Origin: Candidatus Bathyarchaeota archaeon
Lineage (GTDB): Archaea > Thermoproteota > Bathyarchaeia > Bathyarchaeales > Bathycorpusculaceae
Direction of reading: 5' to 3'
Assembly (NCBI GenBank): GCA_013388905.1
Contig: JACAEI010000031.1
Location: 62,001 to 126,000 of the forward strand
DNA: 64,000 nucleotides
The position numbers and the translations under genes were made by a program. How positions within the stretch are numbered: position 1 is the first letter of the stretch; each line of letters starts with the position of its first letter. The notes beneath the pieces were generated by a model that did no database searches, was not told the DNA's origin, and saw only the letters and a list, made by a program, of their open reading frames with translations. This document shows, one piece after another, positions 8,190 to 14,508 of the stretch.

Positions 8190-10265
8190 TTACAATTTGA
8201 GCAGTTTGAGAGTTGCTGAGTTGCTGACAACGAACAGGGAACTGAAAGCCATGGCTCCAGCCGCGATTATTGGGCTTAGCAAACCGATGGCGGCAATTGG
8301 AATTGAGACAGTGTTGTATATGAACGCCCAGAAGAGATTCTGTTTAATCTTCTTCATAGTAGCCCTGCTAAGTATTATTCCCCTTGCAACGTCACGCAAA
8401 TCGTCTTTGATGAGGACAATGCCGCCAGTTTCTTTAGCAATGTCGGTTCCGCTACCTATGGCTATGCCAATATGCGCCTGAGCGAGGGCAGGAGCGTCGT
8501 TTATACCATCGCCCACCATAGCGACAACTTTGCCTTCGCTTTGCAGTCTTTTGACGACGTCGACTTTTTCCCATGGCAAAACATTCGCAATAACAGTGTC
8601 AATGTTCAATTGTTCGGCTATTGCTTTGGCAGTTCGTTCATTATCTCCAGTTAACATGGCAATTTCTAATCTCATATCTTTTAGTTGTTTTATGGCTTCA
8701 GCCGCGTTGTCTTTAGGTGTGTCCATAACCGCTACTATTCCAGCAATTTTTCCGTCAACAGCAAGAAGCACAGCAGTTTTGCCTTGCTCTTCAAGTCTCG
8801 CAAGTTTTTCCTCAACGCTTCCAATATCAACGTTGTTTATGCGCATTAGTTTTCGGTTTCCAAGCAGAATCCGCTGTTTTTTATAGGAAGCTTGGACTCC
8901 ATGTCCTGGAACAGCTTCAAATGAATCGGCGTCTGCGGCTTTCAGTTTAGCTTTGCTTGCTGCTTTAGTGATAGCCTCAGCTAATGGATGCTCTGAACCC
9001 TTTTCCGCAATGGCGGCGAAGCCTAAAACTTTGCCTTCATCATAACCGTTAAAAGCAATGATATCTGTGACTGACGGCTCTCCTTTAGTCAAAGTTCCAG
9101 TTTTATCAAATACTACTGTCGTTAGTTTTCTGGCGTTTTCGACATATTCGCCTCCTCTGAGTAAAACTCCATATTCGGCGCCTTTACCAACCCCAGCCAA
9201 AATGGCTGTAGGCGTAGCAATGCCTAAAGCGCATGGGCAAGCAATGAGAAGAATCGCTAGTAATACAAGAAAAGCGAATGAGAAGCCAGTAGTGACAAAC
9301 CAGAACGCAAATGCAATTGCTGCAATAGTGAATACAACTGGAACAAAATATTTGACAACGCGGTCTGCATATTTCTGAACTGGTGCACTTGAAGCTTGCG
9401 CTTCTTCCACTAAATGCACAATCTGCATTAGAGCAGTGTCTTCGCCGACTTTAGTCGCCTTAACTTTTAGCAAGCCGGTTTTGTTTATTGTAGCGCCTAT
9501 GACTTCGCTGCCCACGTTCTTTTCTACAGGTATGCTTTCTCCAGTGATGATTTTTTCGTCAACCGAAGAGTAACCAGCCACTACTATGCCATCCGTAGGA
9601 ATCTTTTCGCCTGGTTTAACAACAATTACGTCGCCAACTTGCAAATCGTCTATTGGAACTTCCACTTCCTGCCCATCTTTCAGAACTCGTGCAATTGTGG
9701 GCTGAAGCTCCAACAGTTTCCGAATCGCTGCAGCGGATTTCCTCCTTATAGTTTCTTCAATAAACTTGCCCAACAAAACGAAAGCCAGAATTGCAATGGC
9801 GACTTCCATGTAGCCGAAACCTTCGGTGCCCAACCATGGAAAGAACGTGCTTACAGCACCATATCCCCACCCAGCTAAAACGCCAGTAGTTATGAGTACG
9901 TCCATGTTTATGGTTCGGCTTTTGAGCGCGTTATACGCTCCGTAATGGATGCTCCATCCGGCTATCCAAACAATTGGAGTTGAAAAAATGAAAAAGGCTA
10001 GATCCCATGCAGAGATTCCAATTATTCGGAATGACATGATGGCCACTGCAAGACCTAACATAGCAACTACACGCAAGGCAGCTACGCTTATTACGCCTGC
10101 GAGTGCCAAAGCGACTCTCCGCTTCATGGCTTTTAATTCCTGTTCAGGCTGTTCATATGTTCGAGCGCAGGTTTCGCTGCAGAAATAGTAGGTTCTGTCT
10201 CCAATCTTGCGTTTGATAGAATTTTCCTTATCTACAGTCATTCCGCATACAGGATCTCTTGGCAT
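8190..10265 (-). CDS. copA: Copper-translocating P1B-type ATPase with N-terminal YHS domain
   Basis: Exports Cu(I) across the membrane at the cost of ATP. Counted from the ATG, it has a YHS domain with C7, C29 and C33 in place of the usual CxxC heavy-metal domain, TGES at about 242, the TM6 CPC at 343-345, and the phosphorylated D387 in [14 protein letters not shown] follows in the nucleotide-binding domain, and YN and MAFSS in TM7/TM8 mark the Cu(I) class. I chose ATG at 10265, which begins MPRDPVCGM like other YHS domains. A TTG at 10283 would add six residues and instead looks like part of a TTGGAG ribosome-binding site. Its promoter carries the palindrome at 10299-10318. Confidence 0.95.
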
Positions 10266-10298: not shown

Positions 10299-10338
10299 AG
10301 ATATATTTAAATATATCTATAAAAAATATATCTTAAAA
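10299..10338 (-). promoter_or_regulatory. copA promoter with perfect palindrome and repeated operator-like motif
   Basis: AGATATATTTAAATATATCT at 10299-10318 is a perfect 20-bp palindrome that contains the likely TATA element of copA. Just beyond it, 10324-10338 reads AAATATATCTTAAAA, which matches 13156-13170 in the PadR-TRASH promoter (AAATATATCGTAAAA) with one mismatch. The AAATATATC core occurs twice here. Placement over the TATA box fits repression by promoter occlusion. The assignment to the PadR-TRASH protein is inference. Confidence 0.6.
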
Positions 10339-10369
10339 CGCTACATATATCCTTTTTGCGTCAAAACAA

Positions 10370-12760
10370 TCATTTCTTGAAGTATGAGCGACCAATAAGA
10401 AAAATTAGGAGATATGTCACTCCGCCCAGTAGCAATACAATGCTAAAGCCAAAAGACAGGGCAATAACAACTGCCAAAGTTGACCCAAGCAACGAGTACA
10501 AACCGTTTATACCCCACATCCAACTAATGTCACCACTGTCAAACTGTTGATTCATGATTTTCACGCCGCTTGGAAAGGGGATACCCAATAAAAACCCCAC
10601 TGGAAACGCTAAAACGAAAGATACTGTTAAGCGCATGTTTATATCGTAGCCAAGAAAGGCATCAAATATTGCTGGCAGTGTGAAAATGTAGGAAATTATG
10701 ATAACGCCGATGAGTAGAGAAACCTTCAAAGCAAGATTCGTAGGTTCTTTCCATTTTTTACTGAAGAAGCCACCAATGCCCATCGAAAGAAGCAAGGAAA
10801 AAAGCACTATAGAAATTGCCAATGTAGGCGGGCCCAAGAACAATATAAATTTCTGAACCAGCGCTATCTCAACTAACATAAAACCCAAGCCTAAAGACGC
10901 AAAATAGAAGGGCATAAAAGCCGAAAACTTTTCTGCCAACAAATGCTTCACTTTTTTCGATGCTAGACTGATACGTCGCCCCCAGAAGAGTAAATAGACA
11001 ATAGTTACGAAAACCGCTAGGAAAGCAGCGCCTGCTAATGATAATATTAACATAAATGGTAAGCCAACTTCAAATTTATAGAAAAATGGTCTATCATCTG
11101 TTGGAGGTTCGATATCTACAGAGTTAAGCGACGCCGCAGCAATTAATGCATTTAAATCCTTTTTGCCATCCGCTAGTTCGACTAAAGTCTGATCCAACTC
11201 TTGTTTTAATACTGTGTCGGTGTTTGGGAAGTACACTGGTATAAGGCTAAGCTGCAGCGACTTTTCAAGCATTTGGCTTGTTTCTATAAAAGTGAAAGCA
11301 GTTCTCTTCAAGATCAGCACTGGAAACATGGAATGATGCATACTTTCTGCCACAACTATTTGGCGCATGCTTTCCTGAATTGATTTCCCTTCGCTTTTTA
11401 GAGCTTCGAGGGCAGTTGCCACAAGTTTGTAAATTTCAAGACGCTCATGAGCCACTATTATAAGTTGTCCATTGTCGGTTAGATGGTTCCAATAGTCTTT
11501 GAAGGAATCTGTTGTAAACAAGTAATTTTCTGCAAGTGAATATCCAGTGCTTCCCTGAATTGTTTTGGTGACTGGTATGTTGAGCATTATAGTATCATAC
11601 TTCGTTGCGTTACGTTTAAGGAAGCTTCTCCCTTCATCGACGTGGACATGAACATTGGCGTAGTTAGTGTAAATGCCACCGTTATAGTCGGAATAATCCC
11701 GTACAATGTTGACAGTATTCTGGTTTATTTCAACCGCATGAATGTGGCTAACATTAAACATCAATGTAATTAAGACATCTTTCCCGCCTCCCGGTCCTAT
11801 GATCAGTGCATTTTCATTATTCATAAAATAAAATGGGTATGCGGCTGTGGAAAATCTTAAGCTGTAAACTGCGCTGTTGGAGTTTGTGAAGTTGCCGTCA
11901 AAACGATACATTTCTGTCCCTGCTCCGCCATCAATAAATATCACTTTGGAGTCTAACGCATTTTCAAATTCGACAAGGTCTGTTCGTCCGAATGCGTTCC
12001 ACCTAGACTCTACAATTCTTGCGTCCATTGCGGGGTTATTAAGATATTCGACAAGCTCTTTGCCTTGATTACTTCCAAGCGGAACATCTTTTGCAGAATA
12101 AATCGTCCAAAGATGTGCGGACAATATTATAAGAAGTACTAATATGGCTGCACTTAGAACTTTTTTCTTGGAAGAAACAAGCGCTATAAAAATTGATGCA
12201 ATTGATAGTACACTTGATACTAAAAGAACTGTGGTTATTGGATTAAAACCGTTAAGAAAAGTTATAACAGCGATGGACCCTAGAGAGGTCCCAACGATGT
12301 CTGAACCATATATGACGTTGTTATATGACGCAAAGAATCTATAAACTGTTGCCAAAAAAACGCCGGAAGGTATGAATGAAAGGAAAAAAAGAAATGTGAC
12401 CGCAAAGAAGTTAGGCGATGGAGAACTTACAGTTGCTATAGTGAAAAGCGAAGTTAGTAGGCTGAAGAGTGAATAAACTATGGTTAAGCTGGCAAACAGT
12501 TCTTTTTTGGGAGTTTTTGGAAAAATCAAATATGCCAATATTCCGCCTATTCCCAATCCCGCAAATGTTGTGGCTATAGCGAGAAAAGCGTAATGATACG
12601 CAAACATCACTGCAAACATGCGGGTTAACGAAATCTCGAAAGTTAAAACGGCAAAACTAATCATGAAAATGCTAAGCAGCAAAATTATTGCCTCATGTCT
12701 TTTGAGGCTCGCATGCTCGATTCTTTGCATACCAGTTTCTGCTTTCTTCAACTGCCTCAA
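10370..12760 (-). CDS. Multi-pass membrane protein with spermidine-synthase-like SAM-fold domain
   Basis: 796 residues. An N-terminal block of about six membrane helices (residues 20-215) is followed by a soluble SAM-binding Rossmann domain with IGPGGGKDVL, an acidic VEIN after strand 2, and DEGRSFL. A second membrane block of about six helices fills residues 600-796. Membrane-embedded spermidine-synthase-like proteins are widespread, but few have known substrates. The gate motif DSSDP of true aminopropyltransferases is replaced by LNIPVT, so ordinary spermidine synthesis is unlikely. The gene sits 6 bases from the glycine-zipper YHS gene, inside the copper island. Met11 at 12730 is an alternative start. 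Confidence 0.75.
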   Translation of the reverse strand: MRQLKKAETGMQRIEHASLKRHEAIILLLSIFMISFAVLTFEISLTRMFAVMFAYHYAFLAIATTFAGLGIGGILAYLIFPKTPKKELFASLTIVYSLFSLLTSLFTIATVSSPSPNFFAVTFLFFLSFIPSGVFLATVYRFFASYNNVIYGSDIVGTSLGSIAVITFLNGFNPITTVLLVSSVLSIASIFIALVSSKKKVLSAAILVLLIILSAHLWTIYSAKDVPLGSNQGKELVEYLNNPAMDARIVESRWNAFGRTDLVEFENALDSKVIFIDGGAGTEMYRFDGNFTNSNSAVYSLRFSTAAYPFYFMNNENALIIGPGGGKDVLITLMFNVSHIHAVEINQNTVNIVRDYSDYNGGIYTNYANVHVHVDEGRSFLKRNATKYDTIMLNIPVTKTIQGSTGYSLAENYLFTTDSFKDYWNHLTDNGQLIIVAHERLEIYKLVATALEALKSEGKSIQESMRQIVVAESMHHSMFPVLILKRTAFTFIETSQMLEKSLQLSLIPVYFPNTDTVLKQELDQTLVELADGKKDLNALIAAASLNSVDIEPPTDDRPFFYKFEVGLPFMLILSLAGAAFLAVFVTIVYLLFWGRRISLASKKVKHLLAEKFSAFMPFYFASLGLGFMLVEIALVQKFILFLGPPTLAISIVLFSLLLSMGIGGFFSKKWKEPTNLALKVSLLIGVIIISYIFTLPAIFDAFLGYDINMRLTVSFVLAFPVGFLLGIPFPSGVKIMNQQFDSGDISWMWGINGLYSLLGSTLAVVIALSFGFSIVLLLGGVTYLLIFLIGRSYFKK

Positions 12761-12766
12761 TCCTCA

Positions 12767-13117
12767 TTAGTTTTTGACGTAAATCTCTGGATTTTGATTA
12801 AATGCGGACTCGCATGCAGAGGTACAGAAATAATATGTTTTTCCACGAAACTCTGTCTTGTGTTTTGACGTTTTCTCGTTCACACTCATGCCGCAAACTG
12901 GGTCTTTAGCAGTTCCTTCAATATTCTCATGTGGCGCATGCCCCCTTCCATGGCATCCGTCTGCAGGTATTCCATGTCTTTTATAGAAACCATGCAATGA
13001 TTTTGTGTCACCAATAAGTCCAACAACAAAGCCAACACTAGGGCCGATAAACGTCCATGGTCCACCAAGTATTGCGCCAAGGGCGGAACCGGCCAAAAGC
13101 CCAAGACAGCAAAGCAT
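12767..13117 (-). CDS. Glycine-zipper membrane segment fused to a YHS metal-binding domain
   Basis: 116 residues. The first 35 residues form a hydrophobic, glycine-rich stretch (LLAGSALGAILGG...GFVVGLIG) resembling a glycine zipper, and a short His-containing linker follows. A YHS domain with C75, C98 and C102 ends the protein. It could hold a metal-binding domain at the membrane surface. The start is secure: GGAGG lies about 8 bases upstream of the ATG. It is the first gene of the unit that includes the SAM-fold membrane protein and shares its upstream region with the divergent PadR-TRASH gene. Confidence 0.78.
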   Translation of the reverse strand: MLCCLGLLAGSALGAILGGPWTFIGPSVGFVVGLIGDTKSLHGFYKRHGIPADGCHGRGHAPHENIEGTAKDPVCGMSVNEKTSKHKTEFRGKTYYFCTSACESAFNQNPEIYVKN

Positions 13118-13145
13118 TTATTTTCCTCCACAACTATTATATTTG

Positions 13146-13177
13146 TGTATCATATAAATATATCGTAAAAAGATACA
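13146..13177. promoter_or_regulatory. Divergent promoter/operator of the PadR-TRASH gene and the YHS operon
   Basis: The arms TGTATC (13146-13151) and GATACA (13172-13177) form an inverted repeat around an A+T-rich centre that contains the TATA-like ATATAAATATAT. 13156-13170 repeats, with one change, the motif in the copA promoter. The PadR-TRASH start lies about 30 bases past the TATA centre, which suggests a nearly leaderless transcript. The layout fits autoregulation together with control of the divergent YHS gene. Confidence 0.58.
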
Positions 13178-13189
13178 TCTGGTTTGACT

Positions 13190-13639
13190 ATGTCTTCAAA
13201 AGAAATAGACGAAATAGTTTCCGACTTCTCACGGTTTTACATACTAACAATACTATATGAAGGACCAAGCCACGGCTACAGCATAATCAGCAAATTCAAA
13301 AAGCGAATAGGAAAGGAGATAAGCCCAAGTCTAATTTACCCCTTTCTCAAACAGCTCGAACAAAAAGGAATGGTGAGATATTCACTTAAGCCTGTAGGCG
13401 CAAAGAAAAAGAAAGTGTTCGAGCTGACAAAAAAAGGCAAGGAACTTTGCACACAACTGTTCAAACGTTTTTCTGCTTTAGTTTCTGTTGCTATTGAACC
13501 AACCATGTCAATTTGCGCAAACTGTGGCTGCAAAGTCTATGAAGGTGGATACAGCGAAGTCATCGACAACAAGAAAATGGCTTTTTGCTGTGTGCATTGC
13601 GCAGAATCATACAAGCAAGAAAGACTGGAGAAGCATTAG
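13190..13639 (+). CDS. PadR-type winged-helix regulator fused to a TRASH metal-sensing domain
   Basis: 149 residues. Residues 10-90 are a PadR-like winged helix (ILTILYEGPSHGYSII, SLIYPFLKQLEQKGMV). The C-terminal 40 residues are a TRASH domain with C109-A-N-C112-G-C114 and C133-C-V-H-C137. TRASH domains bind copper or related soft metals. The known archaeal copper regulators carry TRASH on an Lrp-type helix-turn-helix, so the PadR pairing is unusual. I use the ATG at 13190; TTG at 13184 would add two residues. The gene is divergent from the YHS operon, and its promoter shares a motif with copA, so I infer that it senses copper for the island. Confidence 0.85.
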   Translation: MSSKEIDEIVSDFSRFYILTILYEGPSHGYSIISKFKKRIGKEISPSLIYPFLKQLEQKGMVRYSLKPVGAKKKKVFELTKKGKELCTQLFKRFSALVSVAIEPTMSICANCGCKVYEGGYSEVIDNKKMAFCCVHCAESYKQERLEKH

Positions 13640-13665: not shown

Positions 13666-14508
13666 TTGTTAGGTCAATATTTAATAGTATTCAGAGAAAT
13701 TCTTGAAGCGGCACTCATAACAGCGATAGTACTATCTTATTTGTTTAGGTCTGGCAGACACCATTTGATTCGCTACGTCTGGTACGGCGTCTTTCTAGCA
13801 ATAATCGCCAGTTTAAGCTTAAGCGTCGTTATCCAACTCGCGTATGGCAGTTTAGCTAAAACTTCGCAATTACTGTTCGAGGCTTTAGCCGCGTTCATCG
13901 CCGTTGCAGTTTTATCTTCAATGATATATTGGATGGCTATAAAAGGAAAATACATTAAACAAGAAATGGAACACCGAGTCGACGTGGCAACAACGCATAG
14001 CACAATCATTGGGCTAATGGCAATTGCGTTCGTCGTAGTATTTAGAGAAGGGCTTGAAACTGTGCTTTTTCTAACTCCACTTTTGTTTCAAGACGCAATA
14101 GGAACATTGGTTGGAACCGCTATCGGAACGTTAACCGCAATTGTGCTATCTTATGCTATATTCAAAGCAGGCATGAAAATTAACCTGCAAAAATTTTTCT
14201 ACTTCACCAGCATACTGTTGATTCTTTTAGCTGCTGGATTAGCTGGCTACGGAACACATGAAGCGATAGAGTATGTCGAAGAGACAGGAATCCAATTGGG
14301 ATGGCTCTCTCAATCTGCCTACTCATTAGGCATACCAAGCGATAGCCCGTTTCATCATAAAGGCGTAATCGGTTCTGTTTTCGCAGTGATGTTCGGTTAT
14401 ACAGTGAATCCTGAATGGGCCAGGGTGATTGTGCATGTTATATATTTAGTGATTATGCTTCCAGTAGTTATTTGGATTTATAAGAGGAAAAATAGATGGA
14501 TTTTGTAG
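13666..14508 (+). CDS. FTR1-family high-affinity iron permease
   Basis: 280 residues with seven or so membrane helices and the two REGLE-type iron-translocation motifs of the FTR1/EfeU family: R10-E-I-L-E14 in TM1 and R127-E-G-L-E131 in TM4. In other organisms FTR1 works with a multicopper or periplasmic oxidase, which could explain its place next to copper genes. No oxidase is seen here. The start is TTG at 13666, giving a membrane-proximal N-terminus of normal length. It lies 26 bases after the PadR-TRASH gene and is likely co-transcribed. Confidence 0.88.
   Translation: MLGQYLIVFREILEAALITAIVLSYLFRSGRHHLIRYVWYGVFLAIIASLSLSVVIQLAYGSLAKTSQLLFEALAAFIAVAVLSSMIYWMAIKGKYIKQEMEHRVDVATTHSTIIGLMAIAFVVVFREGLETVLFLTPLLFQDAIGTLVGTAIGTLTAIVLSYAIFKAGMKINLQKFFYFTSILLILLAAGLAGYGTHEAIEYVEETGIQLGWLSQSAYSLGIPSDSPFHHKGVIGSVFAVMFGYTVNPEWARVIVHVIYLVIMLPVVIWIYKRKNRWIL

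Follow-up and report, generated by a model that had tools for sequence, protein, structure and literature searches.

The window, the whole stretch of 64,000 nucleotides of Candidatus Bathyarchaeota DNA that we analyzed, contains a gene for a copper pump, copA, and, separated from it by two other genes, a gene (padR) for a probable copper-sensing regulator that we call PadR-TRASH (Table 1). The copA product scored 560.8 bits against the copper-translocating P-type ATPase model TIGR01511 (cut-off, 397) and matched the Pfam domains E1-E2_ATPase, Hydrolase, and, weakly, YHS; its CPC motif occurs as ACPCALG in the translation. In PadR-TRASH, the winged helix matched PF03551 with an E-value of 1.8e-15 (57.1 bits, above the cut-off of 27), and the TRASH region matched PF24273 at 25.9 bits, just under the cut-off of 27. 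The residues C109, C112, C133, C134, and C137 are invariant in 23 orthologues, and C114 and H136 are nearly so. A domain search of PadR-TRASH gave no Lrp/AsnC match and the PadR domain instead. The top fold matches were PadR structures, and the comparison of the model with the PadR-operator complex 5x11 covered 79 columns at 1.8 Å.

The genes for a YHS-domain membrane protein and for a membrane protein with a spermidine-synthase-like domain (together, 10370–13117) separate copA from padR. The YHS gene is probably under the same predicted operator as PadR-TRASH, and the spermidine-synthase-like gene is probably co-transcribed with it. A YHS gene also adjoins the site in genome G072 and apparently at locus L196. 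In the sister genome G056, neither gene was found between copA and padR; copA and PadR-TRASH are directly divergent there and have one common intergenic region, which aligns with the upstream region of copA in the window. As this region is still single in G056, common descent, with the boxes retained, accounts for some of the resemblance between the window's two promoters.

An FTR1/EfeU-type iron permease gene begins 27 bp after PadR-TRASH and directly follows the regulator at locus L041 too. Because of this position, the handling of iron and copper is possibly linked.

Table 1. Genes and putative promoter elements of the copA–padR locus (window coordinates)
Feature	Position	Strand	Description
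copA	8193–10265	−	Start codon ATG at 10265; P1B ATPase of the Cu(I) type with YHS N-terminus and CPC motif
20-bp palindrome AGATATATTTAAATATATCT	10299–10318		Perfect; copA box 2 fused to putative TATA element TTTAAATA, plus mirror copy
First 15-mer AAATATATCTTAAAA	10324–10338		copA promoter
Predicted copA operator box 1, AGATATATTT on copA strand	10324–10333		Lies 15 bp from the 10309 box; within first 15-mer
Spermidine-synthase-like gene	10370–12760	−	796-aa membrane protein; PF01564, E 1.8e-7
YHS-domain membrane protein gene	12767–13117	−	PF04945, E 4.5e-16; divergent from PadR-TRASH
TGTATC	13146–13151		PadR-TRASH promoter
Putative TATA element TATAAATA	13153–13160	+	PadR-TRASH promoter; overlaps box A
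Second 15-mer AAATATATCGTAAAA	13156–13170		PadR-TRASH promoter
Predicted padR box A AAATATATCG	13156–13165		Two mismatches; within second 15-mer
Predicted padR box B AGATACATCT	13171–13180		15 bp after box A; includes GATACA; conserved
GATACA	13172–13177		PadR-TRASH promoter
PadR-TRASH	13190–13639	+	149 aa; PadR winged helix, 18–86; putative C-terminal Cys-rich TRASH domain, 109–144
Iron permease gene	13666–14508		FTR1/EfeU-type

A tandem palindrome in the two promoters

An earlier note on this DNA, made from the sequence alone, had proposed that copA and PadR-TRASH share an operator, defined by two 15-mers with one difference. Both 15-mers were confirmed. They are identical at 14 of 15 positions, and a match this good between the two promoters arose in 0.7% of dinucleotide shuffles. 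The top 25-mer match (21/25), which spans two boxes, was equaled in none of 300 shuffles. The sequence check also bore out the perfect 20-bp palindrome at copA, and the boxes overlap or adjoin the TATA element at both copA and padR, as had been stated.

A genome-wide count of the 15-mer, which the same note had suggested, was less informative. At up to one mismatch, it gave two matches in the 1.50-Mb genome, both at the named promoters; the reversed control gave three, and thus the count alone is not decisive. The two-box pattern AATATATCN7RATAYATC, also at up to one mismatch, gave exactly two matches in the 1.50 Mb, one at the copA promoter and one at the PadR-TRASH promoter (75157–75179 of contig C24), and none in the control. 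Exact matches to this pattern numbered seven in 14 genomes, all at PadR-TRASH or copA promoters. A single palindrome with one mismatch occurred at 42 places in the window's own genome versus 54 in the control, that is, without genome-wide enrichment; therefore, only clustering and conservation are informative.

When the upstream regions of PadR-TRASH genes from 84 loci were compared with no motif presupposed, the commonest 10-mer was AGATATATCT, and the most frequent spacing from box to box was 15 bp. Among 46 upstream regions of PadR-TRASH orthologues (150 bp each), AGATATATCT was present exactly in 26 and with up to one mismatch in 41, compared with means of 0.015 and 0.57, respectively, in shuffled controls. 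The palindrome sits near the TATA element in these promoters: in those of class A, box 1 lies just upstream of the BRE, and in those of class B, one box lies downstream of TATA. The predicted operator unit is the 10-bp palindrome AGATATATCT, with tandem copies 15 bp apart that overlap or adjoin the TATA box, and the 15-mer is a single degenerate repeat period of this array. The relatives thus support a putative operator common to copA and PadR-TRASH, with the 10-bp palindrome in place of the 15-base definition.

In the window, the copA boxes start at 10299, 10309, and 10324, and every box has one or two mismatches to AGATATATCT. At the position of the PadR-TRASH TATA element, TATAAATATATC is kept in relatives. 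The strings TGTATC and GATACA, which had been described as arms bracketing the padR site, are present; however, the TGTATC arm is absent in the close relatives L196 and G072, and GATACA is part of box B. We rejected them as bracketing arms, since the arm is not conserved in relatives.

No box with up to one mismatch was present in several distant members, namely termite-gut Bathycorpusculum-type genomes and certain Loki- and Thorarchaeota. The regulator promoters at the termite-gut loci L051, L052, L054, L055, and L056 carry the diverged boxes GGATACATATCT, GGATATATCT, and CGATATGTCT, possibly an operator that drifted alongside the protein.

Sites at copA promoters across genomes

The copA promoters of relatives have the arrangement AGATATATCT-N5-AGATAYATTTATA or AGATATATCT-N5-AGATATATTTAAATA, in which the second box runs into the TATA element (rows G004 and G015 of the copA alignment, in the wrong orientation, were disregarded). 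At 42 of 76 loci, including those in Thor- and Lokiarchaeota records, copA and the regulator are no more than 3 kb apart. The palindrome was also found at copA promoters unlinked to the regulator. At up to one mismatch, the best copA had the site in 17 of 19 regulator-bearing genomes versus 2 of 27 in which no regulator was found, the absence of the regulator being uncertain in incomplete MAGs (G019 has the site, and no regulator was found there). The site was present at none of nine paralogous P-type ATPases. Fisher's test gave p = 1.5e-8 for 17/19 versus 2/27 and p = 8e-6 for a second comparison in the site counts that include the paralogous pumps, but these values overstate independence and are indicative only, because the genomes share ancestry and the copA clades were unmatched.

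Exact copies of AGATATATCT are few, with at most eight in each genome of 1–3.5 Mb. G016, G020, G027, and G038 have exactly two each: the first marks PadR-TRASH, and the second marks a copA gene unlinked to it. We inspected the other exact copies for further regulon members and found them mostly within ORFs or before unrelated genes, with no obvious recurrent target; in essence, the predicted regulon consists of copA and the regulator gene. In G061, PadR-TRASH is a multi-stop pseudogene (locus L303; contig C11, 76823–77176) beside an intact copA (74689–76755), and a search of the shared promoter between them found no box. G061 is a natural case of the loss of both regulator and operator box.

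These comparisons make the proposed copper regulon very probable: the conserved palindrome AGATATATCT, as a 15-base repeat of which the window has degenerate copies, marks the promoters of the copper-export pump and of the probable copper-sensing switch in Bathyarchaeia and some relatives.

Proposed mechanism and relation to known systems

Comparative sequence evidence supports the predicted operator, its spacing and positions, and its link to PadR-TRASH, and we consider it highly likely that both sites in the window are the operator of PadR-TRASH, at copA and padR. A PadR dimer of this protein would bind the 10-bp palindrome and, because tandem boxes 15 bp apart cover or adjoin BRE/TATA, obstruct TBP/TFB or polymerase both at copA and at the regulator's own gene; the divergent YHS gene would probably be blocked as well. 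Upon binding of Cu(I) to the TRASH cysteines, PadR-TRASH would release the DNA, allowing the expression of copA as well as autoregulation. Steric repression fits the boxes because these adjoin or overlap TATA on its upstream as well as its downstream side. We infer that PadR-TRASH physically binds the sites, that it represses rather than activates, and that Cu(I) is the signal; this full scheme appears reasonably likely.

The boxes might instead bind PadR-TRASH as a copper-dependent activator of copA, or as a dual regulator that represses its own gene and activates copA. We regard this as rather unlikely, given that characterized PadR proteins are mostly repressors, that copA box 2 overlaps TATA, and that class B padR promoters have a box on the downstream side of TATA. 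An activating or dual role is nevertheless conceivable because many copA box 1 sites lie directly upstream of BRE/TATA, like the motif of Pyrococcus furiosus CopR, for which activation at copA has been proposed (PMC7830388).

It is very unlikely that a different factor binds AGATATATCT at both genes: the site tracks the presence of PadR-TRASH, is missing from the genome with the PadR-TRASH pseudogene at the promoter in question, and lies at the promoter of the regulator itself, the usual pattern in autoregulation. Some room is left for such a factor by the several PadR paralogues in these genomes, and association is no proof of binding. Almost no likelihood attaches to the idea that the similarity has no regulatory meaning and came from an ancestral divergent copA/padR promoter, split by the insertion of two genes, together with A+T-rich TATA composition. 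The alignment of the single G056 intergenic region with the window's copA upstream region agrees with such a history; the occurrence of the palindrome at copA and padR promoters of other genomes, where the two genes are unlinked, largely refutes it as the whole explanation, and the 15-bp spacing and a site found mostly only where the regulator is present also speak against it.

The closest known system to the proposed PadR-TRASH switch is that of Pyrococcus CopR. The Lrp/AsnC-TRASH protein of P. furiosus recognizes a semi-palindromic operator, TTNNCAWWWTGNNAA, beside BRE/TATA and regulates its own gene and copA (PMC7830388). The two systems are alike in that the gene of a regulator with a TRASH domain, a probable one here, is divergent from or near copA and that a predicted operator lies at copA and at the regulator's own promoter, here as sequence sites only. 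They differ in the DNA-binding domain, which is PadR here and Lrp/AsnC in CopR, and in the operator, AGATATATCT at 15-bp spacing here instead of TTNNCAWWWTGNNAA. The PF03551 winged helix is common to PadR-TRASH and the regulators Bacillus subtilis PadR, LmrR, and Rv3488; unlike these, PadR-TRASH has a C-terminal Cys-rich, probable TRASH domain, a presumed metal sensor, and an archaeal TATA/BRE context. In Sulfolobus CopT/CopR, a TRASH regulator is likewise linked to copper ATPase genes, but it is described as having an Lrp-like HTH. These differences suggest that archaea differ in the DNA-binding domain to which the TRASH copper sensor became joined. Our search covered open-access literature and only a minority of subscription-journal papers and preprints; within that scope, it found no paper mentioning both PadR and the TRASH domain, and nothing relevant on archaeal PadR operators, copper regulators of Bathyarchaeota, or the palindrome itself.

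Relatives of PadR-TRASH occur across the order, in 65 of 163 genomes, and in records labeled Bathyarchaeota, Brockarchaeota, Freyarchaeota, and Heimdall-, Thor-, and Lokiarchaeota (individual MAG labels may be wrong). Some Asgard-labeled records have boxes, for example GGATATATCT or TGATATATCT, ahead of the regulator gene. We lean toward a PadR-based second lineage of copper sensors among archaea, present in Bathyarchaeia and Asgard-labeled records, which would have acquired TRASH independently of the Lrp-type CopR/CopT and would have its own tandem AGATATATCT operator with 15-bp spacing. Sequence analysis alone predicted regulator, operator, and target for lineages with almost no cultured members, and the operator consensus makes direct tests with purified protein possible. 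Genome G033 has several diverged PadR-TRASH copies (L055, L057, L058, and L059), one of them with an internal stop.
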